From Heliorestis convoluta (lineage in GTDB: Bacteria; Bacillota; Desulfitobacteriia; Heliobacteriales; Heliobacteriaceae): a stretch of 64,000 nt of DNA. Made by a program: the position numbers and the translations under genes. Shown piece by piece: positions 4,779 through 47,797 of this stretch (its first letter is position 1; each line of letters starts with the position of its first letter). The stretch spans positions 2,337,501 through 2,401,500 of the forward strand of contig NZ_CP045875.1 in assembly GCF_009649955.1 (NCBI RefSeq). The letters run 5' to 3'. Below the pieces are notes generated by a model, which was given only the letters and a program-made list of their open reading frames with translations, ran no database searches and was not told the origin of the DNA.

Positions 4779-6227
4779 ATGAGCGTCGATACGACTTGCT
4801 GTAACAACAGCTGTGACAATCAAGCGATTTCCGAATGGATTAAGTCAGAAGAGTACAAAGAGAAAAACTTTAGCCGTGAAGCCTTGACGATCAACCCGTC
4901 CAAAGCTTGCCAACCCCTAGGCGCGATGCTCTGTGCCCTTGGCATCGAAGGCTGCCTTCCTTTTGTACACGGTTCTCAAGGTTGTGCCGCCTACTTCCGG
5001 AATAACTTGAGCCGCCACCTCCGTGAGCCTGTTCCGACCGTCTCTGATTCCATGACAGAAGACGCTGCCGTATTCGGAGGGCAGGCCAACATGATAGATG
5101 GGCTAAAAAACGCCCATGCACTCTACCACCCTGCCATGATGGCTGTCTTTACCACCTGTATGGCTGAAGTTATCGGCGATGACTTGAAAGCTTTTATCAC
5201 CAACGCCCGCAACCAAGGTGCCATTCCTGAAGACTTTCCCATTGCCTTCGCTCACACACCTAGTTTTGTGGGTTCCCACATTACAGGCTGGGATAACATG
5301 TTCAAAGGATTGCTACAATCCTTGGCCGATCCTCGCCACGGTAAATGGACCAACGGAAGACTCTATCTGGTACCTGGCTTTGATGCTTATCCAGCCAACT
5401 TGCGAGAATATCGTCGTCTCGTAGATGCCATGGGCATTCCTGTCACCATCCTTCCTGATGCAAGTGAACCCATGGATGCGCCCCATACGGGAGAATACGA
5501 GCTTTACCCAGGCGGCACACCCATGGCAGAGCTTGCCGATGCATTGAACGCTTCTGGCTTCGTCTTCATGCAGAAGTATTCAACCCAGAATAGCTTTAAG
5601 TTTGTCAAAAATGTTCAGAAGATCAACACCGAAGTTGTCACCATGCCAATTGGTATTAAGAACACCGATAACTTCTTGATGGCTCTGACAGAAATGACAG
5701 GCAAAGCTGTACCTGCTGAATTAGAAAGAGAGCGTGGTCGTGCAGTGGATGCTGCCACAGACGCGCACCAATATATTCACGGACGCCGTTTCGCACTCTT
5801 TGGAGATCCGGACTTGCTGATCGGACTCGTAGGATTCTTGCTCGAAATGGGCGGCATGCCAGTTCATATCGTATGCACCAACGGAAACGCAAAATTCAAG
5901 AAAGAAATGGATGCCCTCTTAGCCAGCAGCCCTTTTGGCTCAGAAGGAAAAGTATACATTGGCAAAGACCTCTGGCACTTACATTCTCTCTTAATGACAG
6001 AACCTGTTGACATGCTCATTGGTGACTCCCATGGAAAATACCTAGCCAAAGACGCCGGAATCCCTTTGGCTCGCGTAGGTTTCCCTTTAACAGACCGTGT
6101 CAACTTACACCGCTCTCCGATTGTTGGTTACCAGGGTGCAATCAACTTAATCAGCTTGATTGCCAACACCTTCATTGAAGAGCTAGACAGAACCTGCTCC
6201 GATGAAAGGTTCGAATTGCTCCGCTAA
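4779..6227 (+). CDS. nifK: Nitrogenase molybdenum-iron protein beta chain NifK
   Basis: This 482-aa subunit completes the alpha2-beta2 MoFe protein and shares the P-cluster with NifD. Cluster cysteines appear in KACQPLGAML, HGSQGCAAYF and TTCMAEVIGDD, followed by the serine-containing HTPSFVGSH. The ATG at 4779 lies three bases after nifD with GGAGGTG at the end of nifD as its ribosome site. The length is near the shorter clostridial form rather than the ~520 aa of proteobacteria. A 147-base gap with a hairpin separates it from nifE. Confidence 0.98.
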   Translation: MSVDTTCCNNSCDNQAISEWIKSEEYKEKNFSREALTINPSKACQPLGAMLCALGIEGCLPFVHGSQGCAAYFRNNLSRHLREPVPTVSDSMTEDAAVFGGQANMIDGLKNAHALYHPAMMAVFTTCMAEVIGDDLKAFITNARNQGAIPEDFPIAFAHTPSFVGSHITGWDNMFKGLLQSLADPRHGKWTNGRLYLVPGFDAYPANLREYRRLVDAMGIPVTILPDASEPMDAPHTGEYELYPGGTPMAELADALNASGFVFMQKYSTQNSFKFVKNVQKINTEVVTMPIGIKNTDNFLMALTEMTGKAVPAELERERGRAVDAATDAHQYIHGRRFALFGDPDLLIGLVGFLLEMGGMPVHIVCTNGNAKFKKEMDALLASSPFGSEGKVYIGKDLWHLHSLLMTEPVDMLIGDSHGKYLAKDAGIPLARVGFPLTDRVNLHRSPIVGYQGAINLISLIANTFIEELDRTCSDERFELLR

Positions 6228-6260
6228 AATTGTCACTCTCTTACTATTTCGATAGAGGGA

Positions 6261-6325
6261 CCTCACAGACCAGACTGCCTTTACCGTGAGGGAACCCGGC
6301 ACCCGCGCGAGAAAGGCAGCTGGTC
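6261..6325 (+). promoter_or_regulatory. Stem-loop in the nifK-nifE gap, no T-tract
   Basis: A 13-bp stem with one bulge pairs 6268-6281 (arm GACCAGACTGCCTT) with 6313-6325. An alternative six-base stem pairs 6261-6266 (CCTCAC) with 6286-6291 (GTGAGG) and would exclude part of the first. No T run follows, so it is not a standard terminator. It sits between the highly expressed nifHDK part and the scaffold genes, where an RNA processing or mRNA-stability element would make sense. That role is inference. Confidence 0.5.
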
Positions 6326-6374
6326 GCCCCGGTCCCCCAGCCCAGTTAAGAAGAAACAAAAAGGGGGGATAGCG

Positions 6375-7733
6375 ATGTTTGTCAATCTCTCTAAACTTCA
6401 TCTCAAAGAAGAATGTCCTCTCGAAGACAAAGGAGCCCCCAAGCTCTGCATGAAAGCCCTGCCGGGTGAAGGCGCTGAAAGAAGCTGTGCTTTTGATGGC
6501 GCAAGAGTTGTTCTCATGCCGATTGCTGATGCCGCTCACATCGTTCACGGTCCCATTGCCTGTGCCGGGAATTCTTGGGACAACAGAGGTGCCCGTTCTT
6601 CGGGTCCACAACTGTACCGCCGAGGTCTTACTACAGACTTACATGAAATGGACGTTGTCTACGGCGGTGAGAAAAAATTAGAAAAAGCCATTGTCGAAGT
6701 AGCCTACACTCATCAGCCAAAAGCAATTTTTGTCTATGCCAGCTGTGTATCTGCCCTCATTGGCGACGATATCGATAAAGCTTGCCAAGAAGCACAAAAA
6801 GAAGTTTCCGTACCTGTTATTCCTGTAAATGCCCCAGGCTTTATGGGAGACAAAAACATCGGCAACCGGGTTTCTGGTGAAGTGCTATTACAGCAAGTTA
6901 TTGGTACAGCCGAACCAGAAGAAGACCATCCTTTTGCTATCAACTTTATCGGTGAGTACAACATTGCCGGGGATCTCTGGGGTATTCTACCTTCCCTTGA
7001 TGCATTGGGAATCAAGCTTCTCTCATCTATCAGCGGTGATGGCCGCTTTGACGATATTAGAAAAGCTCATCGCGCCAAACTGAATGTCCTTGTATGTTCC
7101 AAAAGTTTGACCAACTTGGTAAAGAAGATGGAACAAAAGTGGGGCATGCCTTATATAGAAGGATCTTTTTACGGGATTCACGACACAAGCGAAACCTTGC
7201 GAATGATAGCACAGATGCTGGGAGATCAAAGTCTGATCGAAAGAACAGAAAAGCATATTGCTGAACAAGAAGAAAAAACACGCCAAATTATTGACCCCTA
7301 CAAGAAAAAGTTAGCCGGGAAAAGAGCCGTCCTCTTTACAGGGGGCGTAAAAACTTGGTCCATGGTCACAACGTTGAAAGAACTGGGGATTGAAGTTCTT
7401 GCCGGTGGGACGCAGAACTCGACGCCAGAAGATTTTCTGCGCATGAAAGCTCTCATGGATCCAGAAGCGCAGATTATCGAAGACACCAGTGCGGCAGGCT
7501 TTTTAACACTGATCGCTGAGAAAAAGCCCGACTTAATTGTAGCTGGCGGTAAAACAAAATATCTGGCCCATAAGACAAGAACACCCTTTTTAGATATTAA
7601 TCACGGCCGTAGCTTGCCCTATGCAGGTTATAGAGGCATGGTCACTTTCGCAGAAGCCGTTCACCGCACTGTATTCAGCCCCGTCTGGGAAAAGCTCCGC
7701 CAATCTTTTCCACCAGGAGGTGAAGCAAGGTGA
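6375..7733 (+). CDS. nifE: FeMo-co scaffold protein NifE
   Basis: This 452-aa protein resembles NifD and with NifN forms the scaffold on which the NifB product is matured to FeMo-co. The conserved cysteines occur in ERSCAFDGAR, HGPIACAGNSWD and YASCVSALIGDD. It lacks the NifD cofactor histidine context (MHSWDYSG), which separates it from NifD. AAGGGGGGAT at 6360-6369 precedes the ATG. The stop overlaps the nifN start. Confidence 0.97.
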   Translation: MFVNLSKLHLKEECPLEDKGAPKLCMKALPGEGAERSCAFDGARVVLMPIADAAHIVHGPIACAGNSWDNRGARSSGPQLYRRGLTTDLHEMDVVYGGEKKLEKAIVEVAYTHQPKAIFVYASCVSALIGDDIDKACQEAQKEVSVPVIPVNAPGFMGDKNIGNRVSGEVLLQQVIGTAEPEEDHPFAINFIGEYNIAGDLWGILPSLDALGIKLLSSISGDGRFDDIRKAHRAKLNVLVCSKSLTNLVKKMEQKWGMPYIEGSFYGIHDTSETLRMIAQMLGDQSLIERTEKHIAEQEEKTRQIIDPYKKKLAGKRAVLFTGGVKTWSMVTTLKELGIEVLAGGTQNSTPEDFLRMKALMDPEAQIIEDTSAAGFLTLIAEKKPDLIVAGGKTKYLAHKTRTPFLDINHGRSLPYAGYRGMVTFAEAVHRTVFSPVWEKLRQSFPPGGEAR

Positions 7734-11888: not shown

Positions 11889-11965
11889 GCGCCCGTAGCT
11901 CAGCTGGATAGAGTAACTGACTACGAATCAGCAGGTCGGGAGTTCGAATCTCTCCGGGCGCGCCA
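11889..11965 (+). tRNA. tRNA-Arg (anticodon ACG), copy 1
   Basis: A 77-base cloverleaf has acceptor arms GCGCCCG and CGGGCGC, discriminator G and an encoded CCA. The anticodon loop CTACGAA gives anticodon ACG, read as ICG after deamination. It is identical to the copy at 13642-13718. A strong promoter precedes it and a terminator follows 15 bases later. Confidence 0.98.
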
Positions 11966-12243: not shown

Positions 12244-12543
12244 CTACTCTTTGATATCAAGGGCCAGTTCTAGCTTGAACTGTAAAAGCATTTCTTTTTT
12301 GATGATGACTTTGAGCATTTCAGCCACAGACTTATCAAGATCGATCAAGTTACCAATAGTTATTGGCTCTGCAATACCACCTGTGGTACTGTCTAATGTA
12401 CCGAGAACTTTTTGGATCTTTTCTCCTTCTGCGTTGATAATGTGGGCGAGAGCAACTTGCTCTATGGCAATGGCTGCAATGATGTCCGCTTTGGCTTCTT
12501 CAAGTGTTCTTTCTGATTTATCAGGAAACGTAGGTGTTGACAT
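12244..12543 (-). CDS. Small helical paralog A (IALEE-LAH-INAE family), 99 aa
   Basis: This 99-aa protein is of unknown function. It shares with three other proteins in the window the core AIAIEQVALAHIINAEGEKI (residues ~24-43), then after a variable loop KKEMLLQFKLE near the C-terminus. This is the shortest variant: it has no proline-rich tail. GTAGGAGGTATCTTC precedes the ATG. The sequence predicts two or three amphipathic helices and no signal peptide. From memory, similar helices occur in hypothetical proteins of endospore formers, so a spore coat or exosporium role is possible but unproven. Neighbour on the same strand: the 73-aa gene upstream. Confidence 0.85.
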   Translation of the reverse strand: MSTPTFPDKSERTLEEAKADIIAAIAIEQVALAHIINAEGEKIQKVLGTLDSTTGGIAEPITIGNLIDLDKSVAEMLKVIIKKEMLLQFKLELALDIKE

Positions 12544-12942: not shown

Positions 12943-13422
12943 TTACCTAAGCGGACGATAGCTTTGTCGAGACTTTACTCTATATTTTGGTACCATTTGT
13001 GGTGTTGATATGGTACGAGTCGAGTAAATTCGTTCAGGAACAACAGGTTCTTTTTTCTCTGGCGGTTTTGGTGGCTCTGATGGCTTTGGTGGTTCAGGTG
13101 GTTTTGGTGGCTTTGGTGGTTTCGGTGGCTTTGGCGGATCTGGTGGCGTGGGCGGTTTTGCTGGCAACAGTTGTGTAACCAATTCTAGTTTGAAGTGGAG
13201 GAGCATTTCTTTCTTTACGATTGTGGTCATTAAATCTTTTACGCTTTGATTTAGTTGGACCAATTCTGTAATGGAGACAGAGTCTGTCTTTATGGCATGC
13301 TGAACTTTTTCTGCTTCTGCATTGATCAGATGGGCCAGCGCCGTTTCTTCAAGTGCAATTGATTCGATAATATCATTCAAAGCTTCATCGCGAGTCCGCT
13401 TTGGTACTGTAGGTGGTGTCAT
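12943..13422 (-). CDS. Small helical paralog B with PPKP-repeat tail, 159 aa
   Basis: Residues ~20-40 read ESIALEETALAHLINAEAEK and residues ~69-80 VKKEMLLHFKLE, the same core as the other three paralogs. It is followed by a proline-lysine rich tract (residues ~90-126, repeating PPKP, PPEP, PPDP) and a basic, Arg/Tyr-rich C-terminus. TAAGGAGG lies ten bases before the ATG. The extended, positively charged tail could bind an anionic surface or be a cross-linking substrate; this is inference. No signal peptide. Confidence 0.88.
   Translation of the reverse strand: MTPPTVPKRTRDEALNDIIESIALEETALAHLINAEAEKVQHAIKTDSVSITELVQLNQSVKDLMTTIVKKEMLLHFKLELVTQLLPAKPPTPPDPPKPPKPPKPPKPPEPPKPSEPPKPPEKKEPVVPERIYSTRTISTPQMVPKYRVKSRQSYRPLR
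13045..13158 (-). repeat. In-gene proline-codon repeat tract
   Basis: On the + strand this appears as repeated GGTGGCTTTGGTGG-like units of 9 bases encoding PPKP/PPEP in the minus-strand gene. It could change length by slippage. Confidence 0.75.
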
Positions 13423-13641: not shown

Positions 13642-13718
13642 GCGCCCGTAGCTCAGCTGGATAGAGTAACTGACTACGAATCAGCAGGTCGGGAGTTCGA
13701 ATCTCTCCGGGCGCGCCA
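13642..13718 (+). tRNA. tRNA-Arg (anticodon ACG), copy 2
   Basis: This is identical over 77 bases to the copy at 11889, including the encoded CCA. Flanking sequence differs except for a few bases after CCA. No terminator is visible before tadA, which starts 78 bases after the tRNA, so co-transcription with tadA is likely. Confidence 0.98.
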
Positions 13719-36083: not shown

Positions 36084-36635
36084 TTGACATCGGTTCAAAG
36101 CATAAAAGCCAATCCTTATTTTGAGCTCTTTTTTGTTCAGGGAACGGACGGCATGCAGACAGCTCGTAGCAGTGGAGAACTTGGCGATCGTGCAAACCGT
36201 TGGTGGTTTAAGAAGATCATGGATGGGCCAGACAAACCTTTTGTTAGCAAATCCTACTACTCCATAAGCGGAAATATGGCTGTATCGTCCGTTATTATGC
36301 CTATCTATCGGGACAACGAACTTGTCGGGATTTTTGGCAGCGATTTAAAACTAGAGTCTCTTCAGGAGTTGGTGGATCGTACAATTGAAGGGCAGGAGCG
36401 GTATGCCTATATCATTGACGGTGAGGGATATGTCGTCGCCCAGGAAATTAAGAAGCTGGCCGAGCAAACGTCTGAGGCGACGAAGGAAATTACAGACCTT
36501 ATTGTTGCAACCCAGACGAATGTGAAGAAAGTGGTTTCAATGATCAGTGAAAGTTCTCAACAAATGGAACAAGGCTTTCATTTTTGCTTCAATCATGACA
36601 TTAGAGAAGGCAATTGTGTGTTTAAACAGGCGTAA
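36084..36635 (+). pseudogene. Remnant of a methyl-accepting chemotaxis receptor
   Basis: Residues ~1-118 are a piece of an extracellular dCache sensor domain (YFELFFVQGTDGMQT, then VIMPIYRDNELVGIFGSDL). The sequence then jumps to a fragment of the cytoplasmic signalling domain (QEIKKLAEQTSEATKEIT, a typical MCP stretch) without the second membrane helix, HAMP or the EAGE hairpin tip. The last ~20 residues are out of frame. The start is a TTG with no ribosome site. An internal deletion plus loss of both ends best explains it. Confidence 0.85.
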
Positions 36636-46058: not shown

Positions 46059-46119
46059 GGGCTCATTTCCCAAAAGGCGGATTCAGAGAATCAAATATGA
46101 GAGGCTTCATATAGCCTCA

Positions 46120-46181
46120 AAAAAAAGGAAGAAGTAACTTTAGCGACTACACTATCGTTACTTCTTCCTTTCTCTTTTTTA
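46120..46181. terminator. Bidirectional terminator between lipoprotein gene and ParM partner gene
   Basis: AAAGGAAGAAGTAAC (46125-46139) pairs perfectly with 46157-46171. A run of As on the left and Ts on the right serve the two convergent genes. Confidence 0.92.
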
Positions 46182-46574
46182 TGTTCCCAAAGAGGCGAAT
46201 GCTTGTACGTCAAAAGTGATACCATTGTTGTCCTGTACTTCAGAGGGAATAGAAGGTTTATCTGCAGGCAATGTGCCCCCTTTTGAATTGGCTTTTGAAG
46301 AAATCTTTGTGGAACTGTCGGGAATTTTTTTTACTTTTTCCTTGGTACTCACGAAAGAAGTCGGAGCTGACGGCGCTTGCTCTTGCTCCATTAAGCCGGA
46401 ACAAATGGAGAATAAACGGGCTTTATCAGGGTGATAAAGGGCGTTATTAATTAATACTTCTAAAGCGAGATTGCGATAATCGGGAGGTAAGGATTCAAGC
46501 CACTGGCCAGCTGGAGAGGATGAAGGGACTTTGAAATAATAACGCTTATATTTCCCTTTGCCTTTTTGAGTCAT
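46179..46574 (-). CDS. Partner protein of the actin-like ATPase, ParR-like candidate, 131 aa
   Basis: The N-terminal ~65 residues are basic then globular (KYKRYYFKVPSSS, LEVLINNALYHPDKARLF). The rest is a low-complexity Ser/Lys/Pro-rich tail. It begins two bases after the ParM-like gene stop and is clearly co-transcribed. By position it should be the DNA-binding adaptor of an actin-type segregation system, but I see no diagnostic ParR motif, so the call rests on context. Confidence 0.6.
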   Translation of the reverse strand: MTQKGKGKYKRYYFKVPSSSPAGQWLESLPPDYRNLALEVLINNALYHPDKARLFSICSGLMEQEQAPSAPTSFVSTKEKVKKIPDSSTKISSKANSKGGTLPADKPSIPSEVQDNNGITFDVQAFASLGT

Positions 46575-46576
46575 CG

Positions 46577-47578
46577 CTATTCTAGCAGCTTCAAAAATCC
46601 CAGTGAATTGGCCCAGACGGGGTCTTCAATCACTGTCGCCTGCATGTCCTCAACCAGACGGGGAAATACATGAGAACCGCCGCCGGCCATGTATATGGCA
46701 TCTAAATCGTAATGGATTTCAGCCAGTGACTTTTTAATACGGTCTCCAATTGCTTTGGCAATCATGGTTTGAGCTTTGAGCATATCATCGGATAAATCGA
46801 TGATTTTCCTGCGGTAGGCGATCCGACCTTGCCGCTTGATTACATCTTGGATGCGATTACCATTGGCGGGAGCGCCAGTATGTGCCTGGTAGATCTCTCC
46901 GATGGCTCGATAATAATCGGCAACACCAATCTCAATGCTTCCCGTTTGACTGAGGACAGGCGTTACGCGTCCATCTTGAATACGAGCGGTAATATAATCG
47001 GTCGTGCGTTGGCCAATATCGATTAAAGAAACCATTCCTTCTTGGGGTAAACTCTTCAGTGTAAGCAAAGCGGCAGCGCCCTGGGGATAGACGATAATGT
47101 TATCGAAGAAGATTTCTCGAGGTTTCATGCCGTCGACAGAAACTTCGGCTTCTAACTGAGTGAGACTTCTCTGCAGATCCACTCTTTGGTCAGCAAAGTA
47201 GGCAATGGGCAAGCCAACAGCAAGATGACAACCTGGTTCTGCATTAAGGAGGCGAGCCGCTGTCAAGATCAAGACATCGTGTTCTTGATTGTGGTGCTTC
47301 GTCCGTTCTGTTTGCTCAATAAGACTGTTGCTCGCCTCTCGTTCAGCCAAATCCCCTACGAAAAAAGGCTCTCCATCGATGGTAACTTGATAGTTTTCCA
47401 ATCGGGCAATACCGGAAGCGGAAAAAGTACGAGCCGGTGCAACGCTTGATGGAAAAGAAATTCTTGAACGGGCGCTTACTGCCTTTACTTGTCGGTATCC
47501 CACATCGATAGCTATTCGGTTTGCCATAGGAATGGCAGGTGTGACGGACGCCGTAGAGCTCTTGCGTGCTCTTGTCAT
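46577..47578 (-). CDS. Actin-like ATPase of the ParM/Alp type
   Basis: In this 333-aa protein the actin-fold motifs are the phosphate 1 loop IAIDVGYRQVKAV, the phosphate 2 loop SLIDIGQRTTDYI and the adenosine loop IYMAGGGSHVF. It belongs to the ParM/StbA-like family that forms filaments to move plasmids or other DNA. GAGGAGGGAC precedes the ATG. A cluster of TTCCAAGA repeats lies upstream, as expected for a partition operator. Whether this is a chromosomal cassette or a relic of an integrated element cannot be decided here. Confidence 0.88.
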   Translation of the reverse strand: MTRARKSSTASVTPAIPMANRIAIDVGYRQVKAVSARSRISFPSSVAPARTFSASGIARLENYQVTIDGEPFFVGDLAEREASNSLIEQTERTKHHNQEHDVLILTAARLLNAEPGCHLAVGLPIAYFADQRVDLQRSLTQLEAEVSVDGMKPREIFFDNIIVYPQGAAALLTLKSLPQEGMVSLIDIGQRTTDYITARIQDGRVTPVLSQTGSIEIGVADYYRAIGEIYQAHTGAPANGNRIQDVIKRQGRIAYRRKIIDLSDDMLKAQTMIAKAIGDRIKKSLAEIHYDLDAIYMAGGGSHVFPRLVEDMQATVIEDPVWANSLGFLKLLE

Positions 47579-47591
47579 AACAAGTCCCTCC

Positions 47592-47661
47592 TCTTGGAAT
47601 CTACATCAATATTACCATATAGTTCCAAGAAAGTCCTTCTTTCTTGGAAAGTTTTCCTAGA
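47592..47661. promoter_or_regulatory. TTCCAAGA repeat cluster upstream of the actin-like gene
   Basis: Three exact copies of TTCCAAGA or its complement (47592-47599, 47623-47630, 47642-47649) and one degenerate copy (TTCCTAGA 47654-47661) lie within 70 bases. Two of them form the inverted repeat TTCCAAGAAAG / CTTTCTTGGAA. Candidate operator or parC-like site. Confidence 0.55.
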
Positions 47662-47757
47662 AAGAATTGATCATAGCTCATGAAAGGCTATCTGTGAAGA
47701 ACTTATAAAAGCTACAAAGAAGTAAAGTAATGTGATTAAAACCATGAGATAAAGATG

Positions 47758-47797
47758 AAAAAACAGACCCTGTATAAGAACAGGGTCTGTTTTCTTT
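47758..47797 (-). terminator. Terminator of the glutamate dehydrogenase gene
   Basis: AAAACAGACCCTG pairs with CAGGGTCTGTTTT around an 8-base loop, with TTTTTT following on the minus strand. It could also work in the + direction. Confidence 0.9.

Follow-up and report, generated by a model that had tools for sequence, protein, structure and literature searches.

Analysis of a 64-kb stretch of Heliorestis convoluta DNA (the window) revealed two adjacent genes on the minus strand: parM, encoding an actin-like ATPase of 333 aa (46577–47578), and a gene for a parR-like partner of 131 aa (46179–46574), whose start lies 2 nt from the parM stop. The partner comprises an N-terminal region with predicted helices, a predicted disordered linker of about 33 residues (86–118) and a C-terminal FDVQAFASL peptide. 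A candidate parC, or operator-like cluster, at 47592–47661 contains three exact copies of TTCCAAGA and a degenerate copy, TTCCTAGA. Immediately 5' of these repeats lies a sigma-70-like promoter (TTCACA-17-TATGAT, 10/12; 47670–47698, minus strand), and the order on the minus strand is promoter-like site, repeat cluster and GGAGGG, the last located 7 nt before the parM ATG. The promoter call is weak evidence, since the region contains six such sites against a shuffle mean of 3.1. A terminator-like stem 3' of the glutamate dehydrogenase gene (47758–47795, minus strand; 16 pairs with a T-rich tail) separates the cassette from that gene. At the other end, 3' of parR, a terminator-like inverted repeat with 25-nt arms that are 84% complementary (46119–46176, minus strand) has a T run in its 3' arm on the minus strand; the terminator scan did not list it.

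The 12 neighbouring genes tested against Pfam were all metabolic or without a family (2/12 matched none), and no replication or transfer gene was among them. The families comprised aminotransferase, carbonic anhydrase, molybdopterin oxidoreductase, SH3-domain protein, glutamate dehydrogenase, iron hydrogenase, NADH-dehydrogenase-like subunits, FIST protein and a chemotaxis-receptor piece. A short ORF at 36084–36635 joins a dCache piece to an internal segment of an MCP signalling domain and looks like a chemotaxis-receptor remnant. A sequence-only reading of this DNA had described a ParM-type ATPase with a small partner and a repeat cluster upstream of parM, forming a three-part layout among ordinary metabolic genes; the open reading frames, the family matches given below, the three exact and one mismatched repeat copies and the Pfam results for the neighbours bear out this description.

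The genome is a single contig of 3,218,981 bp, on which the cassette sits; according to excerpts of the genome paper, H. convoluta HH has one circular chromosome and no plasmids (PMC7143216). The GC content was 48.4% for parM, 42.1% for the window and 39.6–47.4% for parR and the other eight neighbouring genes measured, and the base composition of parM is not decisive as a sign of origin. The cassette is located near the antipode of dnaA, which lies at 801.7 kb (G000:C1 801657–802142). The idea that it marks the terminus was dropped, as the GC skew of 20 sampled stretches and the window revealed no clear turn at the cassette; no dif-like site with up to three mismatches was detected in the window or the genome.

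The actin-like ATPase and its small partner

The parM product matched the Pfam families ALP_N (1.1e-27) and MreB-like_C (2e-23), both above cut-off, as well as phrog_691, 'partition protein' (3.5e-45), and two pCBH ParM sequences ranked first in a phmmer search (~9e-28). Assignment to PRTRC system protein D (TIGR03739) was rejected, the score being 81.8 bits against a curated cut-off of 214.8. With an AlphaFold2 model of the protein (pLDDT 84, pTM 0.81), Foldseek placed pCBH ParM first (E 5.4e-25), followed by Ta0583, Dh-cParM1 and pSK41 ParM, and ranked the pCBH, Dh-cParM1, pSK41 and R1 ParMs all above MreB. The VIA Z-scores of the model were 29.1 with both pCBH ParM and Ta0583, 27.9 with Dh-cParM1 and 26.9 with Anabaena CorM. 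Residues D25, G27, K32, Q166, D187, G189, T192 and GGG299–301 were invariant in alignments of 16 and of 12 sequences; in the actin family, these positions belong to the nucleotide pocket. These matches and the predicted structure identify the product of 46577–47578 as an actin-fold ATPase of the plasmid-partition branch.

No family model of Pfam, NCBIfam or PHROG matched the partner. Because of its position beside parM, it was compared with the small genes that follow parM in relatives, and both of its ends, an N-terminal start of the KRx4[LV]P type and a C-terminal FDVxAFxxL, were found again in many of the relatives' ParRs. The start, for example, reads KYKRLELRLPADHP...YPPGQR...LID in locus L052 (KYKRLELRLP) and KYKRYYFKVPSSSPAGQW...LPPDYR...LIN in the window (KYKRYYFKVP), and the C-terminus reads FDVEAFMNL in L052 versus FDVQAFASLGT in the window. 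In an alignment of 12 partner sequences, D122 was invariant and A125 and F126 were near-invariant, and the window partner has Gln at a position where the relatives show a near-invariant His. The partners at L051 (1075–1470, minus strand) and L081 (5005–5421, plus strand) carry a C-terminal FDVxAFLDLG and a deviant N-terminus, most deviant in L051.

A hidden Markov model was built from 29 relatives' partners, which were chosen by eye and by the C-terminal pattern and did not include the window partner. It scored the window partner at 5.9 bits, above 4998 of 5000 shuffles of the same protein (2/5000 were higher), and every other ORF of at least 60 aa in the window scored lower, the next at 4.5. 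The C-terminal motif occurred in the last 12 residues of 6/200,000 shuffles, the motif having been defined after the alignment was viewed. Alignment of the single partner sequence with 14 relatives by hhalign was weak (probability 2.5%, P 0.019), and BLASTP against the L052 partner alone, a hand-picked comparison, gave 3e-4. The partner had no match in plasmids. Its matches in 61 genomes, besides itself only at E 0.023 and weaker, and its matches to ubiquitin-conjugating enzymes (E 0.23–1.2) were taken as chance.

The AlphaFold2 model of the partner, built with 12 sequences, was poor overall (mean 63) but confident for residues 11–40 (block means 84, 90 and 89). The monomer model contained helices at 21–28, 31–47, 51–66 and 124–127, which agree with a ribbon-helix-helix N-terminus, but no strand. 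Foldseek listed six weak matches, and the only ParR among them, that of pB171 (2jd3), came last (E 10; VIA Z 2.0). The sequence-only reading had ascribed to this protein a disordered tail and no recognisable ParR motif. The tail was indeed predicted to be disordered, with pLDDT below 50 at residues 86–118; the second statement was not supported, for both termini recur in relatives' ParRs, though no library model matches. Chromosomal ParRs are described in PMC12270681, in excerpt, as sharing little sequence and as annotated through context and predicted ribbon-helix-helix folds. On its sequence and model, the 131-aa partner is likely, though not proven, to be a ParR.

Repeat cluster and arrays of related cassettes

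The exact copies of TTCCAAGA are located at 47592–47599 (minus strand), 47623–47630 (plus) and 47642–47649 (minus), and the one-mismatch copy TTCCTAGA at 47654–47661 (plus). Their orientation alternates, with centre spacings of 31, 19 and 12 bp, and the cluster lies 14–83 bp upstream of parM; of the four exact copies of TTCCAAGA in the whole window, three belong to the cluster. The repeats stand modestly above chance, by a margin that varies with the test used. Across the whole 279-bp intergenic region, with overlapping words counted, 98/2000 shuffles reached three copies, and for an 85-bp core picked after the cluster had been seen, the figure was 3/2000. When 300 bp upstream were examined and words of three or more letters were counted without overlap, it was 1/200, and with 9-mers of up to one mismatch 79/300 shuffles reached the observed four copies, which is not significant. 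Three triples of an 8-mer within 60 bp were detected in the 64 kb, two of them in one coding tandem repeat (13.1 kb) and the third being the cluster; among Markov simulations of 64 kb, 4/30 contained such a triple. The genome-wide uniqueness of the inverted pair, found once in 3.2 Mb, carries no weight, since a backward control was also found once.

Elsewhere in the window, a tandem pair of similar-looking small proteins is encoded at 12244–12543 and 12943–13422 (minus strand), of which the second contains a tandem repeat rich in proline and lysine (DNA 13057–13165). The pair is flanked by two tRNA-Arg genes (11889–11965 and 13642–13718), both with anticodon acg and both scoring 61.9 bits with Rfam.

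To describe where arrays lie in related cassettes, an array was defined as an 8-mer with at least three non-overlapping copies, reached by at most 2/200 shuffles. The census covered 40 of 49 loci, the window included; the nine left out were judged by eye to be without a convincing partner (L046, L049, L055, L065, L066, L073, L076, L077 and L079), and in the Sulfobacillus plasmid cassette the gap was inspected by eye. Among the 31 cassettes with a gap of more than 25 bp, 13 had an array between parM and parR (L053, L056, L059, L060, L062, L064, L068, L069, L072, L083, L086, L087 and L088), and the remaining 18 gaps contained none by the 8-mer criterion. Several of these 13 inter-gene arrays are palindromic, and their sequences differ. 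Arrays upstream were found in 2/40 loci (the window and L044) and arrays downstream of the partner in 5/40 (L042, L043, L044, L048 and L083), though at L048 and L083 the downstream copies may fall in coding sequence. Both Heliorestis second cassettes have four copies of TGTACTCC or GTACTCCA downstream of parR (0/200 shuffles). Several census loci are near-orthologues, so the array positions are not independent events.

The second ParM-ParR cassette of the H. convoluta genome (L042, G000:C1:674000–688000; parM 6298–7392, parR 5917–6288) has a Replic_Relax protein and a resolvase-domain ORF in its vicinity, and the genus mate shares it, array included (L044). Other heliobacteria have a different ParM-ParR pair, located in L047 (4723–9496) between the IMP dehydrogenase and ribonuclease J genes; L048 resembles this arrangement by eye, and the search with the window ParM in the two Heliorestis genomes did not find a pair of the L047 type.

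Distribution of relatives and known systems

Among 82 genomes of the class, its own included, the window ParM had no close orthologue, the best identity besides itself being 36%; counting the query itself, ten ParM matches reached a threshold of 1e-12. The one ParM match in the genus mate is the counterpart of H. convoluta's second ParM, and the family genomes searched yielded no orthologue of the window ParM. Of 398 genomes of the phylum, 53 contained a match at 1e-20 (own genome included), with identities up to 42%. The nearest ParMs, 41–42% identical, belong to other Bacillota families; the second ParM of the same genome is 28% identical. Eleven loci of the named genome collection, with ParMs 33–42% identical, came from Desulforamulus, Desulforadius, Desulfotruncus, Desulfofundulus, Desulfovirgula, Ammonifex, Desulfallas and Clostridiales/Peptococcaceae MAGs, and among the relatives' neighbours tested were a T4SS coupling protein by L084 and a topoisomerase by L086. 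In plasmids, 26 records matched, the first being Sulfobacillus pY0017 (29.8% identity over 92% of the query), and five phage records carry distant ParMs (22.7–28.4% identity); scanning viral contigs and genome contigs with one protein at a time confirmed no relative.

In a tree of 55 rows, the window ParM formed a lone branch (0.93 changes per column) near the Desulfotomaculum-type groups, but it fell in no supported group and thus points to no particular donor; the second ParM was placed elsewhere. In the genus mate, no ORF in the 19.5 kb around the glutamate dehydrogenase gene (84% identical) matched the window ParM, but that gene is flanked by an ABC transporter and PEP carboxylase. Since this neighbourhood is rearranged, it provides no clean empty site, and an argument from such a site was dropped.

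Chromosome-encoded ParMRC systems have been published, in Desulfitobacterium hafniense (Dh-cParMR-1) and Clostridium botulinum (Cb-cParCMR; PMC12270681). As excerpts of that paper describe them, they share with the H. convoluta cassette a chromosomal ParM-fold ATPase with a small, poorly conserved ParR nearby and the additional presence of ParABS genes; the Desulfitobacterium host is likewise plasmid-free, and Cb-cparC also has its repeats immediately upstream, those of Cb-cparC being palindromic. The window ParM is distant from Dh-cParM1 (phmmer 1.8e-5), and whereas Dh-cParM1 is reported as conserved in 5/6 Desulfitobacterium species (PMC12270681), the window ParM was not found in the genus mate. 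Chromosomal ParMRC is an already published kind (PMC12270681), to which the H. convoluta cassette would add another member. The main text of that paper does not mention Heliobacter or Heliorestis, the H. convoluta genome paper (PMC7143216) does not mention ParM, and no title on this locus was found among open-licence papers.

The ParMRC of pCBH, a Clostridium botulinum plasmid (PMC6599009), provided the top ParM by sequence and by Foldseek and, in the excerpts of its description, has parC directly upstream of parM. However, pCBH ParM is plasmid-borne and 24–27% identical in structure alignments, and the distance between parM and parR is 474 bp in pCBH, by the coordinates in PMC6599009, versus 2 bp in the window. 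The Desulfotomaculum-type Bacillota set, a label of our own for 12 loci (L052, L053 and L080–L089), has ParMs 38–43% identical to the window ParM and partners that share both ends; unlike in the window, the gap between parM and parR is 44–287 bp in 11/12 of them, with an overlap in L082, and 5/12 have an array between the genes (L053, L083, L086, L087 and L088) with repeat sequences that differ from those of the window. FcmBC of filamentous cyanobacteria is also a chromosomal, plasmid-derived ParM/ParR-like pair, with FcmC located in membrane-associated foci; unlike the window ParM, FcmB is nearest to AlfA and widely conserved in filamentous cyanobacteria (PMC12645912, in excerpt).

Probable origin and possible role of the cassette

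We consider it probable that the locus is a chromosomal partition cassette of the plasmid kind (type II, ParMRC), gained by horizontal transfer. From its family and fold, ParM would be an ATP-dependent, actin-like filament protein, and the partner would act as ParR, its predicted ribbon-helix-helix-like N-terminal part binding the TTCCAAGA cluster. The conserved C-terminal FDVQAFASL may dock on ParM and thereby capture filaments, by analogy with R1, in which the C-terminal peptide of ParR binds ParM. Since the cluster lies between the predicted promoter and the parM ribosome site, ParR bound there probably also shuts down transcription of the operon that encodes it. The most likely source of the cassette is horizontal transfer from Desulfotomaculum-type Bacillota, the home of its nearest relatives, by way of a plasmid or conjugative element; it would now be on its own after the glutamate dehydrogenase gene. 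As the cell has no plasmids, the filaments would work on the cassette's own chromosomal site.

The same arrangement could be an intact but functionless cassette, left by an integrated element and heading for loss. Its sporadic occurrence, with no other ParM above 36% identity among the 82 class genomes, would fit such an idle remnant, as would the absence of ParM near the genus mate's glutamate dehydrogenase gene, the lack of replication or transfer genes among the 12 neighbours tested and the small number of repeats. Nevertheless, neither reading frame is interrupted and the residues of the pocket have been kept on a long branch, which suggests past selection, and we regard an idle remnant as unlikely. 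The repeats might instead act in RNA, one leader repeat pairing with the repeat that overlaps the ribosome-binding site and so controlling parM translation. The predicted fold of the parM leader (47576–47665, minus strand) has −31.1 kcal/mol and a z of −4.56, with 0/200 shuffles as stable, and a z of −4.5 was reached by 2/48 relatives' parM leaders; the repeat beside GGAGGG pairs with the middle repeat with a probability of 0.87–1.0. However, inverted DNA sites fold in any case: z ranged between −1.1 and −6.8 in the inter-gene regions of 12 relatives and was −3.4 for the opposite strand at the window locus, so the leader fold cannot separate a role in RNA from one in DNA. Moreover, the ribosome site is only partly paired (unpaired probabilities 0.30–0.98), no Rfam family matched the leader at gathering score and no relative sharing this leader was found; translational control by the repeats appears very unlikely.

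A role in cell shape was also weighed, in which ParM and its partner form a domesticated cytoskeleton without segregating DNA, and any function of the repeats would not go beyond that of an autoregulatory operator. A precedent exists in FcmB, a chromosomal, horizontally acquired ParM-type actin needed for rod shape (PMC12645912, in excerpt), and H. convoluta is described in the excerpts of its genome paper as plasmid-free, with cells of unusual, tightly coiled morphology (PMC7143216). The ParM model does match Anabaena CorM, but pCBH ParM, Ta0583 and Dh-cParM1 fit it better, and the fold therefore offers no sign of a role in shape; the partner retains ParR-like ends. A general shape factor would be expected across the family, yet none of the family genomes searched yielded an orthologue. 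The same genome already contains two matches to ParB-family genes and two full MreB-family genes, indicating that the cassette replaces neither and that there is no obvious vacancy; we consider the cytoskeletal role highly improbable. A more specific version, that the captured partition actin has become a second cytoskeleton, or the mover of one chromosomal site, and adds to the tight coil of H. convoluta, is a far-fetched speculation to which we give the least credence. If true, it would be a second, independent domestication of the FcmB type, in Bacillota, with the ParR-like partner serving as anchor and autorepressor; nothing in the data favours a shape-giving actin over the plain partition reading.

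As a probable partition cassette, the locus bears on what ParM filaments do on plasmid-free chromosomes, a role left open by the authors of the 2025 paper on chromosomal ParMRC, as excerpted (PMC12270681). The H. convoluta cassette provides a compact, self-contained chromosomal example in a plasmid-free, oddly shaped phototroph. Across the related cassettes, the array occupies three positions relative to parM and parR, whereas the two ends of the partner recur, and these recurring ends provide a simple way to recognise ParRs that family models miss.
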